Shown in pieces: positions 17,228 through 33,884 of a DNA stretch of 41,148 nt; within the stretch, counting starts at the first letter, position 1, and the number at the start of each line of letters is the position of its first letter. The DNA is from a virus: positions 1 to 41,148 of the IMG/VR virus record IMGVR_UViG_3300007735_000729, one strand, 5' to 3'. The notes below the pieces were generated by a model. That model did not search any database. It was not told the DNA's origin and was given only the letters and a program-made list of their open reading frames with translations. The position numbers were made by a program, and so were the translations under genes.

Positions 17228-18348
17228 CAGTTGAACGCTCCATAGTCAGCCGCAGGCTGGTTCCCGAGGCTGTAATTGGTCGGAAGCGAATTGAACAGCC
17301 GCGTGCCATTTGCGCCGACGGTGGCTGCCGTCTCTGCGTCCTGCAGCCCCTGCAGCGTCCGCTGCGTGTTGTACTGCTCGTAACCCGTCTGCAGCGCCTT
17401 GCCGATGCCGGCGACGGCGTTCAGGCCGATGTTCCCCTGATTCTCGCCGTTCTGCATGGCGATGTTCCCCAGGTTGCTGTTCACCGACCCGATGGTGTTG
17501 CCGTATCCGGTCGCGGCATTCTCCCCGACGCTCGTCACCCCCATCAGGTTGTTCACCTCCTGCTGGTAGGTGGAATCCGCCAGCCCGGTGCTGTAGTCAT
17601 CCAGTGCCCGCAGCGTGTTGCCCGACAGCGTCATGCCCAGTGCGCCAGCCTGTTTCTTCGTGGCATCCAGCCCCTCCTTCAGCCTGAACTGGTAGCCGGG
17701 CATGGAGCGCAGCGTATCGAGGATGCTGGGCTGGCTGGACGCCTGATCGGCACCCGGCGCCGCAGGTGTCAGCCGGATGTTCATCGGTGCCTCGCCATGG
17801 GAGCCGATGCTGGTCAGGCTGCCATTGGCGTCGATGGACACCTTGTTGTTGAACCCGTGGATGAGGCCGGAGATCACGCCGCCGCCTTCGGGCACCTGCG
17901 CGACAGCCGTGCCCTCGCCGTCCACGATGCGATGCGTCGAGGGATCGTAGAAGAGGCCTGCCCCGCCGGGGCCGCCGCCGGTCACCGTGGCATTGCTGCC
18001 AAGTCCAAGCGTCGTCCCCTTCAGGGTGTTGATCGGGTTGTCGAGCATTCCACCGACACCCCCGCCGCTGGTCTGCTTGCCGTGCTGCCCGGTGGTACTG
18101 ATCCCCGGCAGCGGGATGTAGTTCTGCCGTTCCGTGGTGGTGTCCTTCAGGCCCAGCAGTCGGCTCAACTGGCTCAGGCCAGCCTCCCCGAAGGCCCGAT
18201 AGGGAGCCGTCAGGCGCGCATTCTGGGCAAGCGTGTCACGCTGCAGGCTGGAAGCGGTCTTGCTGGCCTTGTCCGATGCTGACGACGCCTTGTTGGCGGC
18301 ATAGATGGTGCCGCCGGCCACGATGGCTGCTGCAATGATGGGTGGCAT
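17227..18348 (-). CDS. Ejection protein, P22 gp7 position
   Basis: 373 residues from ATG 18348, which has GAGG upstream and overlaps the previous stop; a start six codons earlier is less well supported. The N-terminus 'PPIIAAAIVAGGTIYAANKA' is a short hydrophobic segment followed by 'SSASDKASKTAS', the familiar start of small podovirus ejection proteins. Central region Gly-rich. First of the three internal virion proteins. Confidence 0.75.
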   Translation of the reverse strand: MPPIIAAAIVAGGTIYAANKASSASDKASKTASSLQRDTLAQNARLTAPYRAFGEAGLSQLSRLLGLKDTTTERQNYIPLPGISTTGQHGKQTSGGGVGGMLDNPINTLKGTTLGLGSNATVTGGGPGGAGLFYDPSTHRIVDGEGTAVAQVPEGGGVISGLIHGFNNKVSIDANGSLTSIGSHGEAPMNIRLTPAAPGADQASSQPSILDTLRSMPGYQFRLKEGLDATKKQAGALGMTLSGNTLRALDDYSTGLADSTYQQEVNNLMGVTSVGENAATGYGNTIGSVNSNLGNIAMQNGENQGNIGLNAVAGIGKALQTGYEQYNTQRTLQGLQDAETAATVGANGTRLFNSLPTNYSLGNQPAADYGAFN

Positions 18349-18785
18349 CAGAGGTTCCTCGCCCACTGCTTGATGTCGAGCACGTACCAGCTACCCGGCC
18401 GCTCGAAGATCACGCCTTCACCTGTTGAAATGAATCCGAGCGCCTCACCCAGCGCCCGCGAGTGCCGGTTCTGCGTCTCGATGAATGTCCGCAGGGCGAT
18501 GCAATCGGTGTTCCTGAACATCCATGATGCAGCCTGCATCCCGAGAATGCCAACACGCTGCCCTCGCGCCTCAGGCATGAATGCAGTGTGGAACGACCAG
18601 ATGCCATCCCCCTCGTTGACGTTCAGGAAGCCGCCCCGTTCGTCACCCAGGAAGATGCCCTGACCGGAGCGCACCCATTCCTCCGCATCCAGCCACGTCA
18701 CCGCGCCCATCAGCGTCCAGTGCGCCCAGCGCGGGTCGTTGAACAGGGCATTGATCGCCTGGATGTCGCGGAACGGCTGGATCAT
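18348..18785 (-). CDS. GNAT-like virion assembly protein, P22 gp14 / DUF2824-like
   Basis: 145 residues. 'RGQRVGILGMQAASWMF', then 'IETQNRHSRALGEALGFIST' resembles the acetyl-CoA-binding and C-terminal parts of GNAT acetyltransferases ('N..S.....LGF'). In P22-type operons a protein of this kind (gene 14, DUF2824) lies just before the ejection genes, as here. An acetyltransferase activity in the virion or cell is possible but unproven. ATGA overlap with the upstream gene. Confidence 0.65.
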   Translation of the reverse strand: MIQPFRDIQAINALFNDPRWAHWTLMGAVTWLDAEEWVRSGQGIFLGDERGGFLNVNEGDGIWSFHTAFMPEARGQRVGILGMQAASWMFRNTDCIALRTFIETQNRHSRALGEALGFISTGEGVIFERPGSWYVLDIKQWARNL

Positions 18786-19432
18786 CCGATCCTCCAGTTC
18801 GTCCCGTCGCTGTACACCGGCACGGCATTGGCGCCGCCGCCCACCACAACGCTCGCAAAGGTGGTCACCGTTGCATCTGTCACGAAGTGACGCGCGCCAG
18901 CGCCCGCAGTCCCGGCAGCCGGCAGGCTGCCTACCACGGTCGAAGCCGACTTCAGGAACGTCCCCGCCGACACGCTGGTCGATGCGCTCCACGCGCCAGT
19001 CACCGCATTGGTCCATGTCCCGTCCGCACGCAGCACGTTCACCGTGCCGCCGCCACTCGCCGGAACGGCCCCTGACAGCACGCTGGTGAAGGCCTGCACC
19101 AGTGCCGTCAGTTGCGCCGTGGTCAGATCCGTGGGCACGGCAGAGCCGCCCGAGACGTTGCCCTTGACCGTGTTGTTTGCCATCACCGCGAGGAAGGCAT
19201 TGGTGATGCCCGCTGCAGTGATCGACAGCGTCCTGTCCGACCCGAGATCGCCCCCGCCTGCCAGCGGAGCAGTCGTGCTGACGGTACGGGTCGTCGGCAC
19301 CAGCCCGCCACCCATGGTCGATGTCTGGGTGACGTAGGTGTAGAGCTGGTTGAACCACGACTGCCACGTCGGCTTCAGGCGGATTCGTGGCGCAATCTCG
19401 GAATCTGGCACGGATGGCAGGGGATTGGTCAC
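18782..19432 (-). CDS. Tail needle or small fibre-like virion protein
   Basis: 216 residues with a GTG start in a GTGA overlap. 'APLAGGGDLGSDRTLSI' (about 48-64) is a motif repeated in many phage tail fibres; the rest is Ser/Thr/Gly/Ala-rich beta structure ending 'NAVPVYSDGTNWRIG'. It occupies the place of the gp26 tail needle between gp10 and gp14 in P22. Trimeric fibre or needle-knob function is inferred from motif and place. Confidence 0.65.
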   Translation of the reverse strand: MTNPLPSVPDSEIAPRIRLKPTWQSWFNQLYTYVTQTSTMGGGLVPTTRTVSTTAPLAGGGDLGSDRTLSITAAGITNAFLAVMANNTVKGNVSGGSAVPTDLTTAQLTALVQAFTSVLSGAVPASGGGTVNVLRADGTWTNAVTGAWSASTSVSAGTFLKSASTVVGSLPAAGTAGAGARHFVTDATVTTFASVVVGGGANAVPVYSDGTNWRIG

Positions 19433-20844
19433 TGCGCACGCCCCCGCGCCTTCAGCGCCCCTTCGGTGATCACGAACTTCACGGGATCGGTCATGCGGAA
19501 CCGGAACACGAAGTCACGCGCACTGCCCCACGTCCGCCAGATGACGCGCGTGAAGTAGTTGCCCATGGCCCCGAGGGCGACCCATCGCTCCGTCTGCCAC
19601 GTATGTCCGTTGTCCTTTGACACCTGACACATGATCTGCGGATCGCTGCCCTGCCCGCTGGACAGGCCGACGCCGGTCTCCATGTCCAGGTACAGTTCGT
19701 CAATGGTTGCCACGTCGTAGTCCTGGTTGACGTGCCGGGTGACCACCTCACGCACGATGGTGTCGCCATTGTCGGTGTAGGTCGTCTCGCTGAACGAACA
19801 GACCGCTCCGGTCGAGTAGTCGGTGACGAATGTCTTGCGGCCGAGCGCCGCCACCCACTGCCCCTTGTGCCGCTGAAAATCTCCGGTCGGCACACCGGAC
19901 TGCATCTCCGACCACAGGCCGGAGTGGGAATCGAACAGAAAGGTCCGGTTTTCAGTCGGGAACGTGAGCTGGTACATGCCGTGCGCGCCAACCACGTAGC
20001 CGTTGCCTTCGGCATCGGACACGGTATCCATCGCCCCCATGATCCGGTCGATGTCGGGCGTCGAGATCACCTCCACGAGGTAGCCGGTGACGCGGCACAC
20101 CTGAATGCCGCCCTGCTGGCTCGTGGACAGGAAGTGCAGAGCATTGGCGACGTGTGCCCGGCTCCAGATCGCCGCCAGCCCGTACTCGCTCGTTGCCGAC
20201 AGGATCGGCTGGAACGGCTCCGGCGTGGCGCCCACGTTCTGCCAGAACTCCAGATGATCGGAGCACATGAGCAGCAGGTTGCCCGTGAGTCCGTCCACTG
20301 CAACAAGTTGCCCCGGATACTGCGATGCCGAGGCGAACGCCAGGGCATTCCAGGTCATTGCATCGAACGAATCGGATACGAAGAACTGCTGGCTGCCCGG
20401 CGACTCGCACACGAAGTAGCCGCCCACGAACACCACGGTTTGCGCGCCATTCGGGAAGCCTGCGCTCGTGATCTGCGTCAGGGCGCCGGATTCCCACGTC
20501 CATCCATCGCTGCCGTCCACCGTCACTACCTGCGACGGGCTGCGCGCGATGGACACGTTTCCGGTTGCCGTGGAGAGCGTCCCGCTGCCAAGCGTCACGC
20601 CAGCCTGCGTCAGCTCCAGAAATGAGTCGTTGACGACCGCGTACAGGGACGTCAGCCCCGGCAGCAGTCCGCGCGGCGGTGCTGACAGCGTGAATTCGAG
20701 CGCCATCCCCGGCGTACCGATGATCGCCACCCGCGTCTTGTCACCATCGTCCCGCCGCTCGTAGTAGCAGTTCAGGCGACGCTGGGCAGTCACCACCGGC
20801 ATGGTGCCGGCAATGCCGCCCCCGAAGAGTGGGTACGTTCTTAT
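19429..20844 (-). CDS. P22 gp10-like packaged DNA stabilisation / tail hub protein
   Basis: 471 residues if begun at ATA 20844. Body follows the P22 gp10-type family: 'RTYPLFGGG' start, 'AQRRLNCYYERR', 'IGTPGM', 'VVFVGGYFVCESPGSQQFFV', 'GLTGNLLLMCSDHLEFW', 'EYGLAAIWSRA', all in a beta-propeller-like pattern. The protein seals the portal and links it to the tailspikes. No ATG, GTG or TTG precedes the conserved 'RTYPLFGG'; an ATA sits 7 bases after GGAGGG (20852-20857), whereas the first ATG, at 20802, would cut 14 conserved residues and has no ribosome site. Confidence 0.8.
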   Translation of the reverse strand: MRTYPLFGGGIAGTMPVVTAQRRLNCYYERRDDGDKTRVAIIGTPGMALEFTLSAPPRGLLPGLTSLYAVVNDSFLELTQAGVTLGSGTLSTATGNVSIARSPSQVVTVDGSDGWTWESGALTQITSAGFPNGAQTVVFVGGYFVCESPGSQQFFVSDSFDAMTWNALAFASASQYPGQLVAVDGLTGNLLLMCSDHLEFWQNVGATPEPFQPILSATSEYGLAAIWSRAHVANALHFLSTSQQGGIQVCRVTGYLVEVISTPDIDRIMGAMDTVSDAEGNGYVVGAHGMYQLTFPTENRTFLFDSHSGLWSEMQSGVPTGDFQRHKGQWVAALGRKTFVTDYSTGAVCSFSETTYTDNGDTIVREVVTRHVNQDYDVATIDELYLDMETGVGLSSGQGSDPQIMCQVSKDNGHTWQTERWVALGAMGNYFTRVIWRTWGSARDFVFRFRMTDPVKFVITEGALKARGRAQ

Positions 20845-20875
20845 CTCCCTTCCCTCCGCTTGTTTCCTGACGCGC

Positions 20876-21874
20876 TCACGGCTCGAAGGCGCTCGAGGCG
20901 TAGGGCTGGAAGTAGAACTCCGTGGTCTCCGCATTCGACTCGCGGGCCATCGCAATCGCTTCCTGCGTGTTCCGCTCCATGCCCTGCGTCCACTCGGCGT
21001 TGAACATCGGGGCAATGTCCTTCGCCAGCCCCCAGCACAATGCCCGGAACCATTCCGCCGGGTACTCCGGGTTGTCGGTCGGGTTGTTGAAGTCCTGCAC
21101 GGGGCGCAGGTACACGATGTGGATGATCTTGGCCGTGTCGGTCGGGCTGCCGACGTCCAGGTAGAGCTGCCCGTTGGTCAGTTGCGCCTCGTAGTAGAGC
21201 GCCGTCGGATCCGATGAATAGGTGTTCATCGTCTTCGTCGGAAGCATCTCGTAGGTCTGCAGCGTCATGAACTCCAGCGGCATGTCGGCGCTGTTCTCGT
21301 CCCGCAGCACCGCCGTCACCAGTTCCAGCGGGCGCTGCCCCTTGGTGGTGTAGTTCCAGACATAGGCTCCGATTGCCACGCCCGTCGTCAGGGTGGCGTT
21401 CATCGTCACCGTGCTGGCGCCCTTCGACAGGACGGTCGATGCAAACGTGTCGCCGTTCGACATCTGCACGACGATGTAGTCGCCCACCGTGAAGTTGGCG
21501 ACGTTGGTGGATCCGACCGTCAGCACGGCCGATCCAGAGGCGGTCGCCGCAGTCGTCTGGCACCGCAGGTAGTTCACGGCACTGTTTGCCGCCACCCCCG
21601 CCATCCAGCTGTCCCCGGTCGGCCCGAGGGCATACTGGTACTTCTGGGTGGACAGCACCAGATCGGCCCGCTGCCGGGTCCACATCTTCAGGCCCGGAGC
21701 GAAGTCCTGACGCCCCATCCACTGCTTCACCAGCATGTTCAGGGCCATGGCGCAGTCGGTCGTTTCCTGCGCCGTGAAGCTCTCGGTTCGCCCCAGGCGG
21801 CCGATGTACAGGCCCGCCATGCGGATGATGTCGTCGCGAGAAACAAGAAACGAATACGTGCCGCTGGTCGTCAT
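20876..21874 (-). CDS. Head-tail connector / tail accessory factor (P22 gp4 position)
   Basis: 332 residues. 'TSFLVSRDDI'-like N-terminus ('YSFLVSRDDIIRMAGLYIGR') with 'DCAMALNMLVKQWM' is characteristic of podovirus gp4-like adaptor proteins with a helical ring core; the middle is a beta-rich insert. It attaches under the portal and precedes the gp10-like gene as in P22. ATG at 21874 in an ATGA overlap, with GAGG four bases upstream. Confidence 0.75.
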   Translation of the reverse strand: MTTSGTYSFLVSRDDIIRMAGLYIGRLGRTESFTAQETTDCAMALNMLVKQWMGRQDFAPGLKMWTRQRADLVLSTQKYQYALGPTGDSWMAGVAANSAVNYLRCQTTAATASGSAVLTVGSTNVANFTVGDYIVVQMSNGDTFASTVLSKGASTVTMNATLTTGVAIGAYVWNYTTKGQRPLELVTAVLRDENSADMPLEFMTLQTYEMLPTKTMNTYSSDPTALYYEAQLTNGQLYLDVGSPTDTAKIIHIVYLRPVQDFNNPTDNPEYPAEWFRALCWGLAKDIAPMFNAEWTQGMERNTQEAIAMARESNAETTEFYFQPYASSAFEP

Positions 21875-23451
21875 CTGGCCTCACGCAGCTTCGAGCTGTA
21901 GTTCATCGCGTGCTCGATGGCGTGCCACGCCTGTTCGACGGAGATGTCCTCCTGGCACTGCGCCACGCCGTTCTCGGTGCGCCTGCAGTTCTGCCAGCCG
22001 TAGTGCATCTGGTGGCAGGCAGGCGCCTCGTTCTCGCCGCGCCCCGGACAGGAGGTCTCACGAGACCACAGCGAGATGTTGTTCACCCAGTCGCGGGTCA
22101 GGTTCTCCTCCGTCGAGTGCGACAGGAAGGTCACCTTCGGCACGTCGAGCATGGATGCCGCATTCATCACCCCGGTCTCCGGGCCGACGATGCAATCGCA
22201 GAACCGCAGGAAGGTCATCGTCTGACGGATGTCCCAGACGCCGGAGCGGCGGTACACCCGCGCCTCGTTCTCCCAGCCGGCCTCGAGCATCACGCAGGTC
22301 TCCCCGCCCGCCAGCACCACGTCCCATTCCGGGTAGTTCAGCATGATGGTGGCGATGACCGAGTCCAGCCCCGCCCACGTCTTGTGGACACTGCTGCCGG
22401 CGAGGCTCCACAGGAGCACCTTGGCGCCAGCCATCTTCGCCCGCTCCTTCCGCGCCCAGGCGAGTTCGTCCGGGGTCGGGTAGAAACGCGGATTGGGGTT
22501 GTGAGGGATCCGCGCGATGAGGTGCGACATCTCCACGTAGTTGCGGTTGAGCATGTCGTGCCGCACGGCAGGCGGCCATTCGTGAATCGTTCGCCCCGGC
22601 ATGGCGAGGAACGTGCCCTCTACCGACTCGCACAGATTCACCCACCGCTGATACTTCGGCTTGTGGGCATTCCAGAAGCTGCCCAGGAACTGGTTGGGAA
22701 CCTGATCCACGTCCTGCAAGTAGAACTCGTCCACGCTGGGATCGTGCTGCACCACGGGATAGCCTGGCGTCGAGCAGAACAGGGTGACGTGGTAGCCCTC
22801 CGCCTTCAGGCCGGCAGTAACGCTGGACGCCTGCAGGAGGTCTCCGTAGGCCCCGTAGCGCACCACTGCTGCCGTCTTCTCCGGGCGCGGATTGCGGTAC
22901 GAGAACAGGTGCTCGCGCGCGCCCTTCCGCTGGAACACGAAGTACAGGCTGTACTCCATGTCCTGGTTGCGCTTCTGGAAGTCCACGAGATCCCAGCCGG
23001 GAATCCCGTCCATGTACTCGATGACGCGGTCGAACGAGACGTTCCACTTGTGGTCCGGGTTCGCCCCCGGTTCGCCCATCTTCGGGTACTCGTCCTCGTC
23101 GGGCAGGTACAGGACGAGGTAGCCGTCCACCTTGATCAGGCGCCACCACTCGGCCAGCGTCGCTGCCACCTTCTCCGGCGCGATGTGCTCCAGCAGGTGG
23201 CTGGAGAAGATGAAGTCCATCGTCTTCGAGCCGAACAGCGACATGTTGCTCGCGTCGGGAATCACCACGTCGGGGTTCATCTGTACCCCGAACAACTGGG
23301 TATCGACCTTGTTGTCGACGCCGATGAAGTGCGGGAATACCTTGTTCGGCCCGCAACCGATGTCCAGCCCGCGCCCGCGCGTGTACCGCACGATCTCCCA
23401 GGCGATCTTGCCGCCCTCATTCCCCTGTGGGTCAGTCGCTCTCCACGTCAT
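21871..23451 (-). CDS. Fusion of SAM methyltransferase and GT9 heptosyltransferase
   Basis: 526 residues. Residues 1-185: class I methyltransferase with motif I 'LDIGCGPNK' (29-37), an acidic 'IGVD' strand and 'IFSSHLLEHI' (81-90), ending in a 'GYLVLYLPDED' strand. Residues 190-520: glycosyltransferase family 9, with 'VRYGAYGDLLQASSV' (197-211), 'WSLAGSSVHKTWAG' (348-361) and the donor-site 'IVGPETGVMNAASML' (421-435) seen in ADP-heptose:LPS heptosyltransferases. One protein could therefore add a heptose-type sugar and methylate sugar or acceptor. It lies in the virion operon between head proteins and the connector. ATG 23451 has GGAGGAGG upstream. Confidence 0.85.
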   Translation of the reverse strand: MTWRATDPQGNEGGKIAWEIVRYTRGRGLDIGCGPNKVFPHFIGVDNKVDTQLFGVQMNPDVVIPDASNMSLFGSKTMDFIFSSHLLEHIAPEKVAATLAEWWRLIKVDGYLVLYLPDEDEYPKMGEPGANPDHKWNVSFDRVIEYMDGIPGWDLVDFQKRNQDMEYSLYFVFQRKGAREHLFSYRNPRPEKTAAVVRYGAYGDLLQASSVTAGLKAEGYHVTLFCSTPGYPVVQHDPSVDEFYLQDVDQVPNQFLGSFWNAHKPKYQRWVNLCESVEGTFLAMPGRTIHEWPPAVRHDMLNRNYVEMSHLIARIPHNPNPRFYPTPDELAWARKERAKMAGAKVLLWSLAGSSVHKTWAGLDSVIATIMLNYPEWDVVLAGGETCVMLEAGWENEARVYRRSGVWDIRQTMTFLRFCDCIVGPETGVMNAASMLDVPKVTFLSHSTEENLTRDWVNNISLWSRETSCPGRGENEAPACHQMHYGWQNCRRTENGVAQCQEDISVEQAWHAIEHAMNYSSKLREAR

Positions 23452-23468
23452 CGTCGCCTCCTCCGGCG

Positions 23469-24035
23469 TCAGAACCTGACGAAGAGTTTACTCGTGTCGT
23501 GATCGACCTCCAGCCTGTCGCCGTACAGCTCCTGCACTGCCTGCATGGCGCCACGCAGGCAGTTCGGGTCGTCCAGCCACATGATCCCGCCCGGGGCCAT
23601 CAGCGGCTCCAGGGCGCGGCAGGTGTCGAGGTAGGACTGGTACTGGTCCACGTCGATGTGGGCGAATGCCACGGGCGGCATGGGAACGATGGAGTCGGGG
23701 AACAGGCCCTCGACCACCGTTGCATGGGGGATCAGGGCGCGGACAGCGTCGGAAGATGTGTCGCCGAAGTCGCCCACTGCGTGGGAGTCGACGCCTTCCA
23801 GCTTGAAGGGGATGCCGCTGAAGGTGTCATAGAGGAAGCACTGGCGGCCACGCTCCTGCGCCCAGTGGTCCAGCCACCACGCGGTGCCGCCCTTGTAGAC
23901 GCCCACCTCGATCACGCAGCCATCCGGGCATCGATCCAGCATCGCCAGCACGCCACACAGGGTGGCAGTGCCGATCACGCTGGCTTCGAGTGCCCGATGG
24001 GCGTCCGTGCCGGGAATGGCGTCGGCAGGACGCAT
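23469..24035 (-). CDS. TylF-type SAM-dependent methyltransferase
   Basis: 188 residues. 'VIEVGVYKGGTAWWLDHW' (41-58) binds SAM, 'FLYDTFSGIPF' (67-77) is the TylF/MycF signature, and 'AHIDVDQYQSYLDT' (125-138) with 'WLDDPN' (153-158) supplies metal-binding acids. This family methylates hydroxyls on sugars (macrolide and other glycans) and occurs in glycan clusters. Just upstream of the methyltransferase-heptosyltransferase fusion, so it may methylate the same glycan. Substrate inferred. Confidence 0.85.
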   Translation of the reverse strand: MRPADAIPGTDAHRALEASVIGTATLCGVLAMLDRCPDGCVIEVGVYKGGTAWWLDHWAQERGRQCFLYDTFSGIPFKLEGVDSHAVGDFGDTSSDAVRALIPHATVVEGLFPDSIVPMPPVAFAHIDVDQYQSYLDTCRALEPLMAPGGIMWLDDPNCLRGAMQAVQELYGDRLEVDHDTSKLFVRF

Positions 24036-24036
24036 C

Positions 24037-24387
24037 TCAGTCCCAGAGGCAGTTGACCTGCCCCATGGTCCCGCCGGTCACCACCGTGATGCCGGTCCTG
24101 CAGCGGATGCCGGGACCGACGGTGTTGATGCCGCCCAGCGCCCCGACCGTTGCCGTGCCCAGCACCACGTTTGTGCTGGAAGCCGTGCCGTCATACACCA
24201 CCACCGTCATGCCGGTGCCGGTCGAGATCGCCACCAGCCCCAGGAACACGCCGGGCGTGGCCTTGACCACGGTCGTCCCGGCGGTCGTGATCTGGGTGTA
24301 GTCGGCGACGACCTCGACGCCCTGCGCGCCGGTTACCGGATCGGTCGGCGTGACTGCATTGGGAGAAGTCGGATTCGAGACAGGCAT
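24037..24387 (-). CDS. Small virion protein, possible head decoration
   Basis: 116 residues, rich in Thr, Val and Gly with alternating beta strands ('FLGLVAISTGTGMTVVVYDG', 'CRTGITVVTGGTMG'). No enzyme motifs. In the head-protein group downstream of the coat gene, so a decoration or head-fibre protein is likely. Stop and start codons overlap with neighbours. Confidence 0.55.
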   Translation of the reverse strand: MPVSNPTSPNAVTPTDPVTGAQGVEVVADYTQITTAGTTVVKATPGVFLGLVAISTGTGMTVVVYDGTASSTNVVLGTATVGALGGINTVGPGIRCRTGITVVTGGTMGQVNCLWD

Positions 24388-24797
24388 CAGAGTCGATCCA
24401 GCGTGTTGCCGCGCATGACGTAGCCGCCCACGTCCACATAGAGCAGGTCAGCCCCGCCCTTCTCGTACTGCTCGTCCTCCATCCCCGCCAGCTTCGGCTT
24501 CAGGAAGCCTGCCTTCAGGCCGGACGGCGTCAGTTCAGGCCCGGAGTAGTCGCCGGCATTGTGGCCGCTCGCCATGCCACCCTGCGTGGACGAGTTGAAG
24601 TCGCGGATGTCCGCGAACTCCTGATCGATGATGTCCATGCCGGGTGGCAGGCTCTGCATGAGCGCATTGCCTGACTGCCGCTGGCGAGGAGCACCCTTTG
24701 GCGCTCTCGCTGACGACCATGACGCCCACTGGTCAGGCGCCTCGTTGTCCGGGTCGGTGACGCAGACCTGAAGCGGATGTGCAGGAACCTTCGCCAT
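24387..24797 (-). CDS. Putative head-associated protein, paralogue 1
   Basis: 136 residues with little regular structure, rich in Gly, Asp, Met and Pro. Residues 45-64, 'NALMQSLPPGMDIIDQEFAD', are repeated in the next protein upstream (24808-25182). Ends 'LLYVDVGGYVMRGNTLDRL'. Strong GAGGAG ribosome site before ATG 24797. Family unknown; a flexible capsid-binding protein is a guess from place. Confidence 0.6.
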   Translation of the reverse strand: MAKVPAHPLQVCVTDPDNEAPDQWASWSSARAPKGAPRQRQSGNALMQSLPPGMDIIDQEFADIRDFNSSTQGGMASGHNAGDYSGPELTPSGLKAGFLKPKLAGMEDEQYEKGGADLLYVDVGGYVMRGNTLDRL

Positions 24798-24807
24798 GGC
24801 GATCTCC

Positions 24808-25182
24808 TCAGCTCCAGCCGTCCCCGAACCCGGTGCCGCCCGAATACGTCTTCATGGGCTGGACGCGGATGTCGGCATTCTCCTGGTCCTCGATGTCCAT
24901 CCCCGGCGGCAGGCTCTGCAGCATGGCATTGGCGCCGAAGGGGATGCCCTTCTTCACCAGATAGCCATTGTTGTGGATGCCAACCATCTCGTTGTTCGCC
25001 ATGCGGGCCGAATCCGGCAGGACGTTGATGTCCGCCAGTTCCGACCCGGTCATGTCATGACGCTGCTCGCCACGGGCATTCGCCGAACGCTGGATGTCCA
25101 GCGGGGAGGGCGCATTGCCGCCGAACATCGGGGTGGCGATGCCGTCCCTCGTTGCCGGTGCGCTTTCGGTTTCTCGTGCCAT
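24808..25182 (-). CDS. Putative head-associated protein, paralogue 2
   Basis: 124 residues from ATG 25182, which has GAGGAG seven bases upstream. Contains 'NAMLQSLPPGMDIEDQENAD', matching the neighbouring protein at 16 of 20 positions, and 'DMTGSELADINVLPDSARMA'. Low-complexity, probably extended. Duplication of an unknown virion or assembly protein. Confidence 0.6.
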   Translation of the reverse strand: MARETESAPATRDGIATPMFGGNAPSPLDIQRSANARGEQRHDMTGSELADINVLPDSARMANNEMVGIHNNGYLVKKGIPFGANAMLQSLPPGMDIEDQENADIRVQPMKTYSGGTGFGDGWS

Positions 25183-25193
25183 GTTCAGGCTCC

Positions 25194-25742
25194 TCAGGCA
25201 GTGACGTTGGCGAGCGGCTGGATGCCCCACTCGATGGCGAAGGCGGTCACGGCCGTCGCATCGGTGCCGCGCACGATGGTGATCTGGTCGCCCTGGTTGA
25301 CGACGAAGCCGCCAGTCGTGGTGTTCGACCCGATGCCGGTCTGGGACAGTGCGATGTAGTTCAGCACCCCCGCAGCGCCGGTCGTGGTGTCCGTGCCGGT
25401 CAGCGTGGCGGTGTTGGTCGTCAGCGCCAGTGCATACGGCCCGTAGGTCGAGGTGGACAGTGCCGGCGCCGCCGTCAGGGCCGCCGTGTTGGTGATTCGG
25501 ATGACGGAGAACGAGTCACCGTTCACTCCCAGCATCGTCTTGGTGCCGTTCCACGCGGTCGCGGTGGACGTGCCGTTGGTGATGCCCAGCGCATACACCC
25601 CGAAGATGATGCTCGAGGTGAAGGCGACGAACTTGGAGGCGTACTGCGTGATCGAGCCGGCGCCTGCTGCGTTCGCGCCCAGATTGTGGGCCTTGCGGTC
25701 CTGATACGCGGGGTGGTCGTACCCCATGTTCTTGGTAGCCAC
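25194..25742 (-). CDS. Virion structural protein, likely decoration or head fibre
   Basis: 182 residues, GTG start at 25742 with AAGGAG upstream. Very rich in Thr, Ala and Gly ('TNGTSTATAWNGTKTMLGVN', 'TNTATLTGTDTTTGAAG') with alternating beta strands, as in surface-exposed capsid proteins. Lies two genes after the major capsid protein, separated from it by the HNH gene. Confidence 0.6.
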   Translation of the reverse strand: MATKNMGYDHPAYQDRKAHNLGANAAGAGSITQYASKFVAFTSSIIFGVYALGITNGTSTATAWNGTKTMLGVNGDSFSVIRITNTAALTAAPALSTSTYGPYALALTTNTATLTGTDTTTGAAGVLNYIALSQTGIGSNTTTGGFVVNQGDQITIVRGTDATAVTAFAIEWGIQPLANVTA

Positions 25743-25815: not shown

Positions 25816-26448
25816 CTATTTCAGAAATTCCAAGTACAGCGGCTGCACCGCTTCAACCACCCTGTTCCAGGTCGCCAGTTCCAAGGCATTCGCCTGATCA
25901 TTCAGCGCCCGGAACTGCTGCCTGAGTTCCGATATCTGTTCCTGCACCCTGATCGCGTCCTGCCTCAGGGATTCGACTTCAGCCAGTGGTTCGGCGGCAA
26001 TCCCGTCCCGAACCGGATCCATTCTCGTGTGCCACGCCTCGTGGTGATCCTTGCAAAGCCACCTCACCGTTTCCCAGTGAGGCTCCGCATACGAGTCGTG
26101 ATGCGCTTCAGCCGCTTGTGCCCCACACACTTCGCACGGTTTCCGAGTCCAGTACCCCCGACGAATGTTGGAGTTCACTCGCGTGCGTGCTCGAAGTTGA
26201 TTCGGCCTCTCCGCATTCAACTTCCTGGCGTAGCGCGCCATTTCATCTGGATGCGCCTTCCGCCATTCGGCATTTGCCCGGAGTTGCTTGGCCCGCACCT
26301 CGGGTCGCTTGTATCTCTCCTTCTGGTACACCGACCAGCACTGTCGGCAGCACTTCACGTTGCTCTGAGAGTACGGCGCGGAGGTCACACGCCGTACAAA
26401 CAGATCCTCAGGCTTCGTCTCTCCACACCACTTGCATATCAGGTCCAT
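25816..26448 (-). CDS. Free-standing HNH endonuclease in the capsid operon
   Basis: 210 residues. N-terminal zinc knuckles (C5, C8 and C34, C37: 'CKWCGE', 'CRQCWS'), a basic middle, then the HNH core 'CEVCGA' (C105, C108), 'AEAHHDSYAE' (H116, H117) and 'VRWLCKDHHEAWH' (C132, H135, H136, H140). A C-terminal coiled coil (about 155-185) follows. Inserted between the major capsid gene and the next head gene, with its own GAGAGG ribosome site. Probable homing endonuclease, unrelated in layout to the one at 664-1125. Its AT content is a little higher than the neighbours, consistent with transfer. Confidence 0.85.
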   Translation of the reverse strand: MDLICKWCGETKPEDLFVRRVTSAPYSQSNVKCCRQCWSVYQKERYKRPEVRAKQLRANAEWRKAHPDEMARYARKLNAERPNQLRARTRVNSNIRRGYWTRKPCEVCGAQAAEAHHDSYAEPHWETVRWLCKDHHEAWHTRMDPVRDGIAAEPLAEVESLRQDAIRVQEQISELRQQFRALNDQANALELATWNRVVEAVQPLYLEFLK

Positions 26449-26487: not shown

Positions 26488-27468
26488 TTACGACGTGGAG
26501 TCCCACTTAACAATACGGCAGTTTGCCGCGCTGGTGTGGACGATCCCCATGCCCCCCAAATAATACCACGCAATACCCTTGGACCGGCCGTAGTCGGTGG
26601 GGATCTTGCCGCGCATCTCCTCTGGCACCGCGATGGCCTCGGCCACGGTGTCGTTGCCGAAGAAGAAGATCCAGTCGGACAGTGCGCGCACCCACGCGGT
26701 CCCGGTGATGCCGTCGGTGGTGACACCCTTGGCGATGTTGGTCTGCTCGACGTACCGCACGTTCTCGTAGCGGCCGATCTCGCCGTTCATGATCAACTGG
26801 AAGCCGGTCTCGGTGTACTGCTTCACCGTCTCCAGGTTGTTCTTGAACGTCCGCAGGGTGGTGGGCCATGCGATGGCGTAGTAGTCGTCAGCGATGTACG
26901 CCGGGATGTTCCGCTCCTTCATCAGGTCCACGATGTTCTTGGCGTGGCCGTTGTTGTAAGCGGCGGAGTTGGTGCTGGACGCCGTGCCGTTGACGCTGAA
27001 GGCGTTGCCCAGCAGGGCGCCTGCAGAGGTCGCGTCGGTCGAGCAGGCTCGGAGCAGACACTGGTTGAACTGGGTCCACGCGAGGCGGTCCAGCACCTTC
27101 ACGGTGTCGTTCTTCAGCACCTTCTCGATGACCTGACTCACCGGAAACTTCGACAGGTTGTCGAGCTTGCCGCTGAACGGGACGCTGTTGCCGGCCTCGG
27201 TCACGGTCAGGGTGCCCTGCGTGATCGTGAAGTTGGTCTCCGGCATGGTGTTGGTCTCCACCAGCACGGCGCCGGCGGTTGCCACGTCGGACATCACGTC
27301 CCAGGTGTAGGTGTCACCCTTCTTCTTGCCCTGCTGGCTCGCGTCGTGAACGTCTGCGAACTGGCGGAACTTCACGAGAGGCTGCACTGCCATGCGCAGC
27401 ACGTTGCTCAACTGGCGGCTGTAGAGAAAGCCGCCGAGGCTGTTGACAGCCCAGACCTGACCGGCCAT
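26488..27468 (-). CDS. Major capsid protein (N4 gp56-like, HK97 fold)
   Basis: 326 residues. 'LVKFRQFADVHDASQQGKKK' and 'DTYTWDVMSDVATAGAVL' followed by 'ETNTMPETNFTITQGTLTVT' are typical of the N4-gp56 branch of HK97-fold coat proteins; the later 'ADDYYAIAWPTTLRTFKNNL' with 'NGEIGRYENVRYVEQTNI' is the P-domain and A-domain pattern. Follows scaffold and portal genes as expected. ATG 27468 with GAGG upstream. Confidence 0.85.
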   Translation of the reverse strand: MAGQVWAVNSLGGFLYSRQLSNVLRMAVQPLVKFRQFADVHDASQQGKKKGDTYTWDVMSDVATAGAVLVETNTMPETNFTITQGTLTVTEAGNSVPFSGKLDNLSKFPVSQVIEKVLKNDTVKVLDRLAWTQFNQCLLRACSTDATSAGALLGNAFSVNGTASSTNSAAYNNGHAKNIVDLMKERNIPAYIADDYYAIAWPTTLRTFKNNLETVKQYTETGFQLIMNGEIGRYENVRYVEQTNIAKGVTTDGITGTAWVRALSDWIFFFGNDTVAEAIAVPEEMRGKIPTDYGRSKGIAWYYLGGMGIVHTSAANCRIVKWDSTS

Positions 27469-27478
27469 GTAGATATCC

Positions 27479-28345
27479 TCAGTATTGCTTCTTGATGGGT
27501 GCCCCCTGGCCGCGAGCCTTCGCCAACTGGGCGATCACGGTCTCAGGGTTGTCGTCTGGCTCGTCATCGAGCGGTGCCTGACGCCCTGCGGCGGTCGGGA
27601 CTGCTGCGACGCTCGCCTTCCTGGCAGCCTTGTCGATCCTCTGAGGGGTGGCGAACTGCGCCTTCCACTGCCGGATTTCATCCCCGACGGTTCGGAATCG
27701 TTCGCTGACGGGGAGATCGGGGCGTTCCCGGGCCAGCTCGTCGTCGCGTTGACCGGCGAGCTTCCAGAGCATGGGGTCCGCTCGGATGTCCTCGTATTCC
27801 CGCTCGAAGTTCTCGACTGCCCTCGTGAACGACAGACGCTCATCGACAATCCTGGCTACAGCGTCCGACTGTGCGGGTGGCTGGCTTCGCAGGTTGCGAA
27901 TCGCCTGAACTGCGTCCTCTTCGGTTCCAAGCTGGATGGCGCGTGCAATCTGCACCGCGTCATCGTCTGCAACTGACCGATCCAGAGGGGGTACGGCCAG
28001 TTCGTTCGCTTTTCTAGCAGCTTCTGCCGCGCGTTGCAAATACTCGTCGGCAGCCCAGTTCTTCTGGGCACGGCGGATGACCTCCTCCTCGGAGACCTCC
28101 ATCTCGCGACCGTTGACCTTCACGCGCACCATGCGGGGCGGCGCAGGCGGCTCGATGTCGTCCTGATGCGGGTCTTCCTGCTGTTCCTCCTGTGCCTGCT
28201 GGCGCGGCTCGCGCGGGTAGACGGTCTCGCCATCCACGTCATCGAACTCGTCGTGCCGTCGCTCGTCGGCATTGTCGGCAATGGCATTGAGGCGGCGGAT
28301 GCGCTCCTCGTTCAGCGTGCCGACGGTCTCGTTCTCGTCACTCAT
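27479..28345 (-). CDS. Scaffolding protein
   Basis: 288 residues, highly charged and helical, with an acidic Gln/Glu-rich segment ('QQAQEEQQEDPHQDDIEPPA'), 'MEVSEEEVIRRAQKNWAADE' and a basic C-terminus, 'KARGQGAPIKKQY', which in such proteins binds the coat. Starts at 28345 with GGAGGAG upstream, overlapping the previous stop. Place before the coat gene supports the call. Confidence 0.8.
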   Translation of the reverse strand: MSDENETVGTLNEERIRRLNAIADNADERRHDEFDDVDGETVYPREPRQQAQEEQQEDPHQDDIEPPAPPRMVRVKVNGREMEVSEEEVIRRAQKNWAADEYLQRAAEAARKANELAVPPLDRSVADDDAVQIARAIQLGTEEDAVQAIRNLRSQPPAQSDAVARIVDERLSFTRAVENFEREYEDIRADPMLWKLAGQRDDELARERPDLPVSERFRTVGDEIRQWKAQFATPQRIDKAARKASVAAVPTAAGRQAPLDDEPDDNPETVIAQLAKARGQGAPIKKQY

Positions 28346-28635
28346 GACAACTCCTCCCGAATCTGCTCCATCGCTGCGTGACCTGCCGTGATCATGTCGG
28401 CCAGCCACGCCTGGACATCACCGGCCACCTTGGCCTTGTTCTGAAGCTGCTGGATGCGCCTGCGGCGCCACGGGGACACCGTGCGCAGCGCCTCCAGCGC
28501 ATCCGTTTCCTCGATTCGCGCCTGCTTGAGCAGGTAGTCCCCGACATCGGACTTCAGGAAGTCCTCTGCCTGCCTGCCAAGTACCGCCCATCTGACCTTC
28601 GGGTCATCCGGGTCAATCTGATTCCCCCTCGCCAT
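28342..28635 (-). CDS. Hypothetical head-assembly gene, 97 aa
   Basis: Helical, charged protein ('LGRQAEDFLKSDVGDYLLKQ', 'SPWRRRRIQQLQNKAKVA'). Small proteins of this form lie between portal and scaffold genes in several podoviruses; no biochemical function is known to me. ATG 28635 with GGAGG five bases upstream; the first 23 bp overlap the portal gene. Confidence 0.65.
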   Translation of the reverse strand: MARGNQIDPDDPKVRWAVLGRQAEDFLKSDVGDYLLKQARIEETDALEALRTVSPWRRRRIQQLQNKAKVAGDVQAWLADMITAGHAAMEQIREELS

Positions 28636-30739
28636 CTCCACCTCCTCCTGCCTGCTGATCCATGGACGCGGCATGCGTCATCTGCTCGAGTTCCATTGCA
28701 TGCTCCTCACGCAGCCGCTCGAGTTCCGCCAGATGGCGGGCCAGCAACTGCTTGTTGGAGCTTTCGGTCTTGATCTCGGCCAGTGCCAGTCGCGTCAGGT
28801 TGTTCTCCTGGGCGATCTTGAGCTTGGTCGGCTGCACCGATTCCTTCTCCTTCACGCGCCCGGACAGGATCTTCACCTCCTGCTGGAGCGCCTCGATCAT
28901 CTGCTGCGCGTGCGCCTTGTCGGGATCGCTCATGTCGAAGAACCTCTGCCCGTCCTGATAGCCGGCCAGCCCGAAGATCTCCTTGGCGACCTCCCCCAGG
29001 TTGATGCCCGGCGGCGGGTGCATGGCAACGTTCTGGAACGCCTGCAGGCCGACGATGAACTTGTTCATCTTCTGGACCGGGTCGGTGGCACCCATGCCGA
29101 CGTTGCAGATGACCGTCAGTTCCCGCTCCAGCATGTCGTCGGTAACGGCATCGACGCCGAACCGCTGGGAGAGTTGCGCCCGCTGGCCGGCAATGTTCAG
29201 GACGGCAGGATCGGTCTCGTAGGACTGCTCCAGCAGCACGAGTTGCCGCAGGATCGGGTTGATGAAGGTCTCGACGTAGGTCTTCAGCAGGTATTCGGTG
29301 AGCAGGTTGCTCGGCCCCTGCAGCATCCGCATCGTGTTGTTCGATGCATTGCCGGAGCGCATCGCCTGGATCTGCATCGGATCGAAGTTGCCGACGAGGT
29401 CGGAGAAGTCCGCGTCGATGCGGTTCTGTTCCTCATAGGCCGATCCGGTCACGTCGGGCCAGTTCACCTCGCGGACATCGTTCTCCACGTCGTCGGCCAG
29501 CGTGATGCCGCCGGGGACGTTGCGCACGAGGCTCTGCAGGTCGACGTTGCGGCCACGCTTCACGATCCATCGCTTGTTCAGGACGAACTTGATGTTGTCC
29601 AGCCGCTGATTCATGACCTCGTTGGCTTCGTCCTGCAGCCCCTCGGACAGCTTGGGGACGCTGGCAGGCATCGGCTTGTGCGTCTCGAGGATCGCATTGC
29701 CGATCACGTAGGGACGTTTCCCGTGGAACACCGTCATCCGCAGCGGCTCAGGCTCCGTCAGAAGATGGTCCGACTGCAGGGTGTAGAACTCCCAGTCCTC
29801 GCCGTTCCAGCGGTGGATGTGCCGGTGGACCCACACGATGTCGTAGTCCGACACGGTGCGGCGCTGCTGCGACGGATCCTGCTGCTGGCCCAGTCGGGCC
29901 GACCGGGTGGAGTCATCCGGGGTGTCCATCGACCGGGCGAGTTCCGAGTCGGATACCTGCTTCCATACACGCCCCTTGGGGTCGGGCCGACGCATCCTGT
30001 CCCGCACGTCGCAGACGTACATCGGGATGAGGTGGATGAAGTAGGGGGAGGTATTGACCGGGTCCAGCCACGAGGCGGACGGATCGAAGCGCACGTTCTC
30101 GATGGGCAGCAGTTCGACAACCGGCTGGTCGACCATCGCATCGGTCGGCTGGTCGTCCTTCGCCTTGCCCGGGATGTACTGCCAGTGGACGTGGGCTACG
30201 CAGGCGCCCTGCACCTGGGCATCCTGCAGGCCGCCCTGCACGATCAGGAACCACGGGATCGACTTGGTCAGGCGGTACTGGATCAGTTCCTGCATGACCT
30301 CGGCAGACATCCGCTGGTCCTTGTCGGACGGGTTCTGCGGCTCGATGTTCACCCGGTCGAGGTTGGAGAAGAACGCTGCAGCCGATGCGGCCTCGTTCTT
30401 TCGGATGACGGCGCGGGTCTTCGGGCGATACAGGTTCGACCGCTTCCTGAACACCTCGGTGTTGTACTTCGAGGCACTGGAATGCTGGTTGTTGAAGGCC
30501 CGCAGCGAGTCCTCCCACTGCCGGCGGTAGTTGGAGTCGATGTAGGTGGTGCTGAACTCCAGCGCATCCTTGGCCCGACGCATCCAGTCAGGCTTGTCCT
30601 CGTGCTCCCCATTCGCGCCCACGTCCCCGCCCGACATGCGCCGACTGCCGCCGACCGTGATCGGGTAGTCGGTCATGGTGGAGGGCGGCGGATCGGTGAT
30701 CGAGGGCGGCTGGGGGCGCCACGAGGTGCTAGCTGCCAT
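28613..30739 (-). CDS. Portal protein
   Basis: 708 residues. Portal hallmarks include 'FNNQHSSASKYNTEVFRKRS', 'NLYRPKTRAVIRKNEAASAA', a central beta domain ('VHRHIHRWNGEDWEFYTLQS'), 'ILETHKPMPASVPKLSEGLQ', 'DEANEVMNQRLDNIKFVLNK' and a long C-terminal coiled-coil barrel ending Gly/Asp-rich. It forms the 12-fold DNA entry ring. Length fits P22 gp1-like portals (about 725). It overlaps the upstream gene by 11 bp. Confidence 0.9.
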   Translation of the reverse strand: MAASTSWRPQPPSITDPPPSTMTDYPITVGGSRRMSGGDVGANGEHEDKPDWMRRAKDALEFSTTYIDSNYRRQWEDSLRAFNNQHSSASKYNTEVFRKRSNLYRPKTRAVIRKNEAASAAAFFSNLDRVNIEPQNPSDKDQRMSAEVMQELIQYRLTKSIPWFLIVQGGLQDAQVQGACVAHVHWQYIPGKAKDDQPTDAMVDQPVVELLPIENVRFDPSASWLDPVNTSPYFIHLIPMYVCDVRDRMRRPDPKGRVWKQVSDSELARSMDTPDDSTRSARLGQQQDPSQQRRTVSDYDIVWVHRHIHRWNGEDWEFYTLQSDHLLTEPEPLRMTVFHGKRPYVIGNAILETHKPMPASVPKLSEGLQDEANEVMNQRLDNIKFVLNKRWIVKRGRNVDLQSLVRNVPGGITLADDVENDVREVNWPDVTGSAYEEQNRIDADFSDLVGNFDPMQIQAMRSGNASNNTMRMLQGPSNLLTEYLLKTYVETFINPILRQLVLLEQSYETDPAVLNIAGQRAQLSQRFGVDAVTDDMLERELTVICNVGMGATDPVQKMNKFIVGLQAFQNVAMHPPPGINLGEVAKEIFGLAGYQDGQRFFDMSDPDKAHAQQMIEALQQEVKILSGRVKEKESVQPTKLKIAQENNLTRLALAEIKTESSNKQLLARHLAELERLREEHAMELEQMTHAASMDQQAGGGGDGEGESD

Positions 30740-31121: not shown

Positions 31122-31306
31122 CGTCGGTAGAACCCCGTGGTGCCCAGATCGGTGGAGTCGAAGCCGCGCGCGCCAGCATCGAACACGTAGATGCGGTGAT
31201 CCGGGGCCGACAGTTCGCCGCCCCATGCCCGCTGGACCAGTTCCAGCCAGGAGATGTCGCGGGTGGTGACGGGCAGGCCGTTGGATGGCGGAATCCTGTC
31301 GGGCAT
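31118..31306 (-). CDS. Small hypothetical protein, 62 aa
   Basis: Contains 'SWLELVQRAWGGELSAPDHR' then 'YVFDAGARGF'. No recognised family. Overlaps the terminase stop (TGATG) and the next start (ATGA), so it is embedded in the packaging operon. Confidence 0.55.
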   Translation of the reverse strand: MPDRIPPSNGLPVTTRDISWLELVQRAWGGELSAPDHRIYVFDAGARGFDSTDLGTTGFYRR

Positions 31307-32958
31307 CAGACGACCTCCGGCTCGAGCATGGCTTCGTCGTAGTAGATGGGCGGGCGGGGATCCATGTCGTAGATGCGGCTGGCTGCGTCCACGATGTCCT
31401 TCAGTCCGCCGAACGGGAAGTAGTGGACCTGCAGCCTGAACCTTTCCACGAGGTCATAGGTTGCACCAGTTTCATCCTTCCTGCGAATTGGTCGGGCGAC
31501 GCGGTATCCGTACCCCTCGGCCTCCATCCGCCGCTGCAGCGCAGTCAGGTTCTTCTCGTCCGTCTTGTAGGGTACATAGAAGCGGTGCGACCGGAAGTCA
31601 GGCCCCAGCCGCTGGACGCGGTCGATCTTGCTGCCCGGACCTTCCCGGGGCCACTCCAGTTCCGTGATCGGGAACCGCTGCCCCTCCAGATCCTGCCGTT
31701 CCTTGAAGTAGTCGAGGTCGCTGATGGCGCCATACCGCTCGTAGCCGACCTCCACGTTCTGGACGCCTGCAGCGGCCCGCCACGTCCGCCACAGGTCGCG
31801 CATGTACTGCCACCGCTCCTGCAGGTCCATCTTCCGGTCGTGGCCGTCCAGCAGGTACTTGTTGCCGGCATAGTCGATGCCAATGACCACCATGGCCGTA
31901 TTGGCCGAATCCCGCTTCACCGACCGCGCCGGGTCGATCATGATGTAGACGTTCAGGGTGTTCGGGCGCGCCTCGTAGACCTGAATGTCCTCGACGTTGA
32001 ACATCTTCTGGGTGCCTGACAGCGGGTTGCCCAGCAACTGGCAGGCAACGACCTCATCCCCCTGATCGATGATCTTCTGCCGCCACTGCTCCGGGGTCAG
32101 CAGGACCGGGTGGCCGTCCATGGTGCCGTCGTCGGTGGCCGGCCGGTGCCGGAGAATCACGGATCCCTGCTTGATCATGGCCTCGTAGGTGTCGGCATAG
32201 CTGTACCGGGTGCCTACGTACCGCTTGCGGCAGTGCAGTGATCCCAGATTGTCCGACAGTTGCCACGCCTCGGTCGTCTTGGCGATCTGCTCCGGCGTGG
32301 TGACGCTCTTGTCGGTGACCACGTCATCGTAGAGCAGGATCTTGAAGTGCCGGGATGTCGGCTGCCCGTCCACCAGTCCCCACGCCTCGACGGTGGCCTC
32401 CTTGGGGTTGGACTGGCGGCGGACGATGATGCCGTCATCGAGGGACCAGCGCGGCGACTCCCGCTCCGGCTTGGCATACAGCACGTCTGGGAACAGTCGC
32501 TTCAGGCGGTCGTTCAGTTCCAGTTCCAGCTTGATCTGGGACAGGAACGCCTTTGCAATGCTGCGGGTGTGACTGAAGATGCCGACTGTCACTTCCGGGT
32601 CCATCAGGATGTCCTGAATGATCCCCGCGAAGGTGATGATCGTGCTCTTGTAGTGTCCGCGCCCCCAGATGTCGAGGTGGTTGTCCGGGGCCAGTTCGAC
32701 CTCCCGGCAGCGGGCGTATATCCACGGGTGAAAGGCGTCGATCCGTCCCAGCACCTTCACCAGAAGATAGAACCTGTCCACGAGGCACAGGGCCGACATC
32801 ATTTCGGTGTCGGTGCCGCGCTCATCGAGCTGGTCCCACGTCTTCAGGACATCAGTGAATTCCAGCTTCTGGAGGTTCGGGAGATTCGTCAATGACCGTG
32901 TAGCTGGCTTCCGAGACGGCGGCCTGCCGGAGCTTTTGCGCAATGGAGCGCGCGTCAT
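31306..32958 (-). CDS. Terminase large subunit
   Basis: 550 residues. ATPase: Walker A-like 'WGRGHYKSTIITF' (98-110), 'VGIFSHTRSIAKAFL' and Walker B 'ILLYDDVVTD' (207-216). Nuclease: 'VYIMIDPARS' then 'YLLDGHDRK' supplies the metal-binding acids of an RNase H-like domain. It cuts and pumps DNA into the prohead; headful packaging would agree with the permuted ends. The first 107 bp overlap the small-subunit-like gene; a start at an internal ATG (codon 53 or 54) cannot be excluded. Confidence 0.9.
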   Translation of the reverse strand: MTRAPLRKSSGRPPSRKPATRSLTNLPNLQKLEFTDVLKTWDQLDERGTDTEMMSALCLVDRFYLLVKVLGRIDAFHPWIYARCREVELAPDNHLDIWGRGHYKSTIITFAGIIQDILMDPEVTVGIFSHTRSIAKAFLSQIKLELELNDRLKRLFPDVLYAKPERESPRWSLDDGIIVRRQSNPKEATVEAWGLVDGQPTSRHFKILLYDDVVTDKSVTTPEQIAKTTEAWQLSDNLGSLHCRKRYVGTRYSYADTYEAMIKQGSVILRHRPATDDGTMDGHPVLLTPEQWRQKIIDQGDEVVACQLLGNPLSGTQKMFNVEDIQVYEARPNTLNVYIMIDPARSVKRDSANTAMVVIGIDYAGNKYLLDGHDRKMDLQERWQYMRDLWRTWRAAAGVQNVEVGYERYGAISDLDYFKERQDLEGQRFPITELEWPREGPGSKIDRVQRLGPDFRSHRFYVPYKTDEKNLTALQRRMEAEGYGYRVARPIRRKDETGATYDLVERFRLQVHYFPFGGLKDIVDAASRIYDMDPRPPIYYDEAMLEPEVV

Positions 32959-33300: not shown

Positions 33301-33493
33301 CTTCCACGTCCTTCCGATCACGACGGATCGGGATGTCGAAACCCTTGGCATGCTCGAACAGGCGCAGTTCAAGATGCCGATTCCGGTTCCTGAGCAGGGA
33401 GCCATCCATCGAGACGTTACCCGTGATGTTCGGGACGCGGCTCTGCGGGGTCATGGTGACCGTGTGCGTCTTCACGCCCTTGCGTCGTCGCAT
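33293..33493 (-). CDS. Small basic hypothetical protein, 66 aa
   Basis: Basic, with Arg/Asn-rich 'GSLLRNRNRHLELRLFEHAK'. ATG 33493 has only a weak AGGG upstream and lies 77 bp inside the end of the nucleotidyltransferase gene in another frame. Its stop overlaps the start of the next small gene. Function unknown. Confidence 0.5.
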   Translation of the reverse strand: MRRRKGVKTHTVTMTPQSRVPNITGNVSMDGSLLRNRNRHLELRLFEHAKGFDIPIRRDRKDVEDE

Positions 33494-33884
33494 GGCTGGC
33501 CCTGCTGGCGAGTATGTCGGTGGTACTGATCCCCTGGATTCTGGGAATCAGGATGAGCTGGCGCGCATGTTCTGCGCCAAGTATCACGCCATCCCGGTAC
33601 TGATCATCCTTCACCATGATGTCCGGGGCAAGCATCATGACCAGATGGGTCGCGTCGCCATCGAACGGCATGACCCAGTCGGTCGGTCGGATGAAGGCCC
33701 GGACATTGCCCAATCGGGTTGCCAGCGAGTCTGCCGGTCGGGCCGGTCCCTTCAATTCACGCACGCTGGCATCGGTGTTCACTGCGACGATCAGCCTGTC
33801 TCCGAGTTCCATGCACCGGGTCAGGAAGTGCCGGTGCCCGTCGTGGAACACATCGAAGCAGCCGTTGGTGAAGACGGTGGTCAC
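33417..33884 (-). CDS. hldC: HldE C-domain-like / HldC heptose-1-phosphate adenylyltransferase
   Basis: 155 residues, nucleotidyltransferase fold: 'TNGCFDVFHDGHRHFL' (6-21) with the catalytic HDGH at 14-17, 'LIVAVNTDASVRELKGPARP' (31-50), 'VKDDQY' and the closing 'GISTTDIL' (118-125), all as in HldE/RfaE cytidylyltransferase-type domains. It would join heptose-1-phosphate to ATP to give ADP-heptose. A His-rich tail of 30 residues is extra and overlaps the next gene. GTG start in a GTGA overlap with the kinase, so the two are made together, as separate proteins rather than the fused HldE of E. coli. Confidence 0.8.
   Translation of the reverse strand: MTTVFTNGCFDVFHDGHRHFLTRCMELGDRLIVAVNTDASVRELKGPARPADSLATRLGNVRAFIRPTDWVMPFDGDATHLVMMLAPDIMVKDDQYRDGVILGAEHARQLILIPRIQGISTTDILASRASHATTQGREDAHGHHDPAEPRPEHHG

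Follow-up and report, generated by a model that had tools for sequence, protein, structure and literature searches.

What is a sugar-transfer enzyme fused to a methyltransferase doing among the head genes of a virus? The question is raised by the 41,148-base virus record IMGVR_UViG_3300007735_000729 (called the window below, at its whole length), in which a protein joining a class I S-adenosylmethionine (SAM) methyltransferase to a glycosyltransferase of family GT9 is encoded within the structural gene set. Phage sugar-transfer enzymes are usually optional cargo. This fusion behaves as a structural gene: it occurs throughout a common clade, is fixed beside a connector gene, diverges with the capsid protein, and is lacking in cultured sister phages whose genes run in the same order. 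That the fusion belongs, on sequence evidence, to the core genes of an uncultivated clade of podophages, and is passed on vertically, is a stronger point than could be seen in the original prediction, made from the window sequence alone. Its role may tentatively be explained, with a probability somewhat short of even, by late-expressed virion glycosylation with methylation, resembling the TibC type of protein heptosylation.

The distribution of the fusion was followed in several datasets. A first scan of IMG/VR returned 15 relatives, and a profile scan at least 583 confirmed ones. When IMG/VR loci were instead selected by capsid protein (the best 80 matches, which represent the near clade and include some near-duplicate contigs), the fusion stood directly before the adaptor gene in all 39 loci reaching the connector; one locus with an 80% identical capsid protein (L167, 1367-12329) showed no detectable homologue of the fusion, the adaptor, or the head closure protein Hc3 in its 10 kb of downstream sequence. 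Pairwise identities of the fusion and the capsid protein across 72 genomes were correlated (Pearson 0.79, Spearman 0.85, 0 of 999 permutations), and therefore the fusion has descended with the capsid. A search for the fusion and for its GT9 half (E up to 1) gave no match at that sensitivity in 50,697 phage records, among which sister phages with approximately 50% identical capsid proteins are present. The gene order of Vibrio phage 1.232.O (portal, scaffold, capsid, HNH, small head genes, adaptor, and Hc3) is that of the window without the fusion. No cultured member and no published description of the clade were found, and the terminase TerL, used as an anchor for related phages, yielded two loci only.

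Bacterial genomes provided a further 24 loci with the fusion, 22 of which adjoin the clade's portal and/or capsid genes (phage or prophage), and none was found in a lipopolysaccharide (LPS) locus in this genome scan. In three isolates, namely Paraburkholderia sp. C35, Paraburkholderia rhynchosiae WSM 3937, and Aromatoleum anaerobium LuFRes1, a tyrosine integrase lies approximately 38 kb from the fusion on the same contig. This layout, on contigs of 102-716 kb, points to prophages, so that decoration of the particle would be directly testable in cultured strains. A diverged sub-group, with fusions 34-40% identical, recurs in Magnetococcales bins of metagenome-assembled genomes (MAGs; contigs L271, L272, L274-L277, L279, and L280).

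The identity of the two halves was examined by sequence and by structure. The methyltransferase half exceeds the Pfam cut-off (Methyltransf_11, E 1e-6). By sequence the GT9 half is weak, PF01075 giving 13.8 bits (E 0.035) versus a gathering threshold of 22, which is a curated sensitivity limit and no biochemical feature; the same family signal in one genome, 15.1 bits (E 2.3e-4), is also under the cut-off. Since this half falls below the Pfam threshold, the GT9 call of the original prediction rested on motifs. A sequence search of the PDB with the single GT9 domain found no match, a PDB profile search reached the GT9 structure 3tov at E 0.1 only, and PHROGs and NCBIfam returned merely weak methyltransferase matches for the fusion. 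Profile alignment by hhalign was moderate for Escherichia coli WaaF (E 2e-4, probability 45) and without significance for WaaC.

It is the predicted structure that settles the GT9 half, through its matches to GT9 enzymes and heptosyltransferases. In an AlphaFold2 model based on 63 homologues (predicted local distance difference test 93.9, predicted template modeling score 0.90), residues ~190-521 match 3tov (Z 24.8), WaaF (1psw, Z 23.6), WaaC (2h1h, Z 20.3), and the protein heptosyltransferase TibC with ADP-heptose (4rb4, Z 20.1), the first two over 275-288 residues of a domain of ~330. As modeled, the whole C-terminal domain adopts a GT9-type GT-B fold. The N-terminal part, residues 5-178, resembles class I methyltransferases (Z up to 16.1) and has the Rossmann fold, the GxG motif, and the acidic residue after beta-2 of SAM-dependent enzymes, with G32, G34, and D46 invariant. 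The predicted fusion of a SAM methyltransferase with a GT9 domain was thus borne out, the former by Pfam and the latter by WaaF profile alignment and structure.

Site residues are strongly conserved. In the profile alignment, D204 falls on the GD motif of the WaaF N-lobe and K357 on its C-lobe lysine, and S353/K357 have the spacing of T226/K230 of TibC, which bind the donor phosphate (PMC4358343). All 63 homologues have D204, S353, K357, E425, and H445, and C468, C479, C489, and C499 are kept in 62-63 of them. The motif GPETGxxN differs from WaaC and WaaF in that their aspartate (DTG or DSG) is replaced by glutamate (ETG, E425) and the next histidine by asparagine.

On what, then, would such an enzyme act? 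Under virion glycosylation, the GT9 domain would use a nucleotide-sugar donor, the likeliest being ADP-D-glycero-D-manno-heptose, and transfer the sugar to Ser/Thr-rich head proteins (the adjoining Thr-rich small proteins, head fibers, or spikes) before or during assembly, after which the fused methyltransferase would methylate the transferred sugar or the modified site. The donor would come from the bacterial LPS pathway in most hosts; GmhA and HldE would raise its supply in some members including the window phage, and a TylF-type O-methyltransferase or a GT2 glycosyltransferase may vary the decoration in some. We infer the donor, from the fold and the enrichment of the heptose cassette, as well as the acceptor, the order of steps, and the benefit. 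A virion acceptor is favored because of the strict synteny with structural genes in environmental phages and prophages alike, the late position, and the genome scan, in which no bacterial LPS locus was found to carry the fusion. Translation in step with the adaptor (in the window) and the surface-protein genes that lie upstream of the fusion in other members also speak for it. Early on, Thr-rich neighbors in the head operon were proposed as possible acceptors; they do exist, with 19% Thr in 24037-24387 and 17.6% in 25194-25742. The richness is conserved, Ser plus Thr averaging 22.5% in 13 homologues of the first and 23.3% in 42 of the second versus 15.7% in the capsid protein. The predicted fold of the second is all-beta with no clear structural match (best Z 7.9).

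Several observations weigh against this explanation. The cysteine spacing of the fusion (C-x10-C-x9-C-x9-C) is unlike that of TibC; the structural matches to 3tov and to the LPS enzyme WaaF are slightly above that to TibC; and E425, in place of the Asp of WaaF/WaaC, may mean a different donor specificity. Thr-rich beta head proteins are also common without glycosylation, and donor-synthesis genes occur in only about a quarter of the records. In a literature search on phage-encoded heptose on virions, no paper combined all the terms sought. The most specific version, in which the whole podophage clade carries heptose or methyl-heptose on its head proteins through a dedicated GT9-methyltransferase core enzyme, with ADP-heptose supplied by the phage itself in some members, is rather doubtful. 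If true, TibC-type protein heptosylation would have its phage counterpart here, in a form of glycosylation new to phages; any decoration of the particle would represent an unstudied phage-surface chemistry of possible relevance to adsorption, stability, or recognition.

Comparison with known systems brings out both shared and distinct features of the fusion. With the TibC/AAH autotransporter heptosyltransferases it shares the GT9-like GT-B fold, the catalytic Asp, the Ser/Thr-x3-Lys site, four conserved C-terminal cysteines, a gene position beside candidate surface-protein acceptors, and plausibly an ADP-D,D-heptose donor. TibC has a four-Cys iron finger, C-x2-C-x15-C-x11-C (C339, C342, C358, and C370; PMC4358343), whereas the cysteines of the fusion are spaced otherwise and do not form this pattern, and membership of the TibC family is for this reason not claimed. 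The fusion also has a methyltransferase domain in place of the N-terminal beta-barrel of TibC and adjoins phage head and connector genes with no autotransporter acceptor, a beta-helix spike being present only in L154. The LPS heptosyltransferases WaaF and WaaC have the whole-domain fold and the GD and Lys motifs in common with the fusion; they differ in the GPETGxxN substitutions and the fused methyltransferase, and in the Cys motif, which is absent from the E. coli WaaF alignment; the fusion, for its part, was not found in LPS loci in the genome scan. In actinobacteriophages, a phage glycosyltransferase and methyltransferase are thought to decorate virions (Freeman et al. 2023, as cited in PMC13313380). 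The hosts there are Gram-positive and the genes separate.

The donor supply was investigated through the heptose cassette (33417-35301), three genes on the same strand approximately 10 kb upstream of the fusion and just before the terminase, separated from the fusion by the terminase, portal, and capsid genes; at least three relatives also have it just before the terminase. The original prediction outlined a complete make-transfer-methylate pathway. The cassette genes exist and the transfer and methylation steps are plausible, but neither a GmhB phosphatase nor an HldD epimerase was found in the window. Nor do its parts behave as a unit: practically all members have the fusion, whereas the cassette and TylF each occur in about a quarter and show no association with each other (p = 0.41 in 43 records). 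Among these 43 fusion-bearing records larger than 16 kb, SIS_2/GmhA was found in 8, an HldE-adenylyltransferase-like gene in 7, either in 10, and both in 5. Correlation with the cassette can be tested only against other phages because the fusion is invariant inside the clade, and GmhA or HldE adenylyltransferase occurred in none of 28 viral records chosen through an arbitrary DNA pattern (versus 10 of 43, p = 0.004). The suggested co-occurrence of the two loci across phages is thus seen as enrichment in the clade but not in the reverse direction, the fusion being present in 2 of 20 viral loci found by GmhA; a general tie of phage GmhA to the fusion was rejected on this count.

Heptose genes are known from other phages, gmhA serving as a marker of viral auxiliary genes (PMC9238414). 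Of the phage collection, 12 records matched GmhA, several being unannotated fragments or pieces of bacterial genomes, and 37, mostly cyanophages, matched HldE adenylyltransferase. Phage-encoded GmhA and HldE enzymes are thus shared with those systems; the difference here is that three such genes stand together just ahead of the terminase, within the late operon, and that the podophage has a GT9 enzyme as well. One clade record (L078; G035:10375-11691 and upstream) has a kinase, GmhA, HldE adenylyltransferase, and GmhB together on the strand opposite the fusion, and is predicted to encode the full ADP-D,D-heptose pathway. No HldD was found in the ten cassette-bearing phage records, and use of D,D-heptose would fit for this reason, as TibC uses the D,D form of ADP-heptose (PMC4358343). 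A strong HldE adenylyltransferase of their own was present in 18 of 23 fusion-carrying bacterial genomes, some MAG contigs of which may be mis-binned phages, suggesting that HldE is usual in hosts, which can then provide ADP-heptose. Donor synthesis is thus an option taken more often in this clade than elsewhere and no fixed partner of the fusion.

The main rival explanation is that, late in infection, the fusion alters the LPS core or a different surface glycan of the host, so that receptors are masked and both the sticking of progeny to debris and co-infection are reduced. The closest named folds are those of the LPS heptosyltransferases WaaF and WaaC, most carrier genomes belong to Gram-negatives with HldE, an optional cassette would raise ADP-heptose, and methyl capping of the sugar could terminate a glycan chain. 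This rival would have to accommodate the strict linkage to head and connector genes, which extends to temperate members, in whose lysogens late genes should not be expressed, as well as the lack of HldD in cassette phages although LPS uses the L,D form. Phage receptor-modifying genes, moreover, usually lie outside the virion operon. We consider it fairly unlikely.

It is improbable that the fusion is a virion component or connector assembly factor in which the enzyme folds are mere scaffold. Translational coupling to the adaptor gene, occurrence in all 39 connector-reaching loci, and divergence in step with the capsid would agree with such a role, but the residues of both the SAM site and the GT9 site do not vary across 63 homologues, six loci encode the two domains separately, and same-order sister phages build particles without the fusion. 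A similarly low probability is given to a donor other than heptose, another nucleotide sugar, with the cassette serving an unrelated purpose: the enrichment of the cassette in the clade and the heptosyltransferase folds argue for heptose, against the absence of the cassette from most fusion-bearing records and the D-to-E and H-to-N changes in GPETGxxN. Least probable is that the fusion consumes ADP-heptose, a known signal, or a related ADP-linked signal in counter-defense or metabolic control, for although GT9 enzymes bind ADP-sugars (as in the TibC and WaaC structures), it has no match to PADLOC families, its position is late structural and not early, and ADP-heptose synthesis by the same phage would oppose its removal.

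Under virion glycosylation, the TylF-type enzyme would be an optional partner. Its early assignment was confirmed by PF05711 (E 2.6e-11, 43.7 bits versus a threshold of 23; residues 38-170). It shares this match and the DxD and DD motifs of aligned members with the TylF/mycinamicin 3''-O-methyltransferase family, and differs in being short (188 residues) and in lacking the N-terminal ~90 profile positions. It was found in 11 of the 43 larger records, mostly directly upstream and sometimes directly downstream of the fusion, and a TylF search of the 50,697 phage records gave no match.

Table 1. Features of the window and, in the last rows, of related loci
Feature	Position	Strand	Remark
GmhA-like sedoheptulose 7-phosphate isomerase	34690-35301	-	TIGR00441 match of 190.8 bits, under the cut-off of 209
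HldE domain I type kinase, short PfkB form	33881-34726	-	DVTGAGD motif intact
HldE domain II type adenylyltransferase	33417-33884	-	Start uncertain; NGCFDVFHDGH motif intact
Terminase	31306-32958	-	
Portal	28613-30739	-	
Scaffold-like	27479-28408	-	
Major capsid protein	26488-27468	-	~50% identity to Vibrio and Escherichia podophages
Endonuclease VII/HNH-like gene	25816-26448	-	Directly after capsid gene
Thr-rich all-beta protein	25194-25742	-	Possible decoration protein, candidate acceptor
Conserved small head-operon protein	24808-25230	-	
Conserved small head-operon protein	24387-24797	-	
Small Thr-rich head protein	24037-24387	-	Candidate acceptor
TylF-type metal-dependent O-methyltransferase	23469-24035	-	Optional partner
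Fusion, 526 residues	21871-23451	-	N-terminal class I SAM methyltransferase; C-terminal GT9 with four-cysteine C-terminal motif
Predicted head completion adaptor	20876-21874	-	Ad3 position in Vibrio phage 1.232.O
Head closure protein Hc3 (connector)	19429-20982	-	
Weak C-terminal GNAT acetyltransferase match	18348-19439	-	Residues 224-336, E 0.0035; downstream of connector
GT2 glycosyltransferase	L082:2333-3433		Directly upstream of fusion; PF00535, E 4e-22
GDSL/SGNH esterase-like surface proteins	L004:8435-9694, L078:851-2821		Upstream of fusion

In the window, the minus-strand structural set runs from the terminase through portal, scaffold-like, major capsid, HNH, small head, TylF, fusion, adaptor, and Hc3 genes to ejection and tail genes (Table 1). 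The early placement of the fusion and TylF between head proteins and the connector proved correct, with head genes upstream and the adaptor and Hc3 downstream, and both open reading frames lie where they had been reported. TylF ends 17 bases before the fusion, and the adaptor start codon overlaps the fusion stop as ATGA. From strand and spacing we infer a single late operon; terminator and promoter scans showed no clear excess over chance. Vibrio phage 1.232.O has a similar HNH gene in the same place.

The surroundings of the fusion vary among members. The slot between the small head genes and the fusion may hold a pectate-lyase-fold spike, GDSL esterases, a protein with a K1-lyase C-terminal domain, or GT2. 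In six loci (L154:6869-10815, L163:4834-7035, L164, L189, L201, and L202) the methyltransferase and GT9 are separate open reading frames, suggesting that the two activities are linked even when unfused; small basic genes lie between them, with a beta-helix (pectate-lyase-fold) spike also in L154. The product of the GNAT-like gene, which has homologues in L020, L024, L032, and L059, is possibly another virion- or glycan-modifying enzyme. In one cassette-bearing record of 59 kb (L259, G072), the fusion homologue contains one in-frame TGA.

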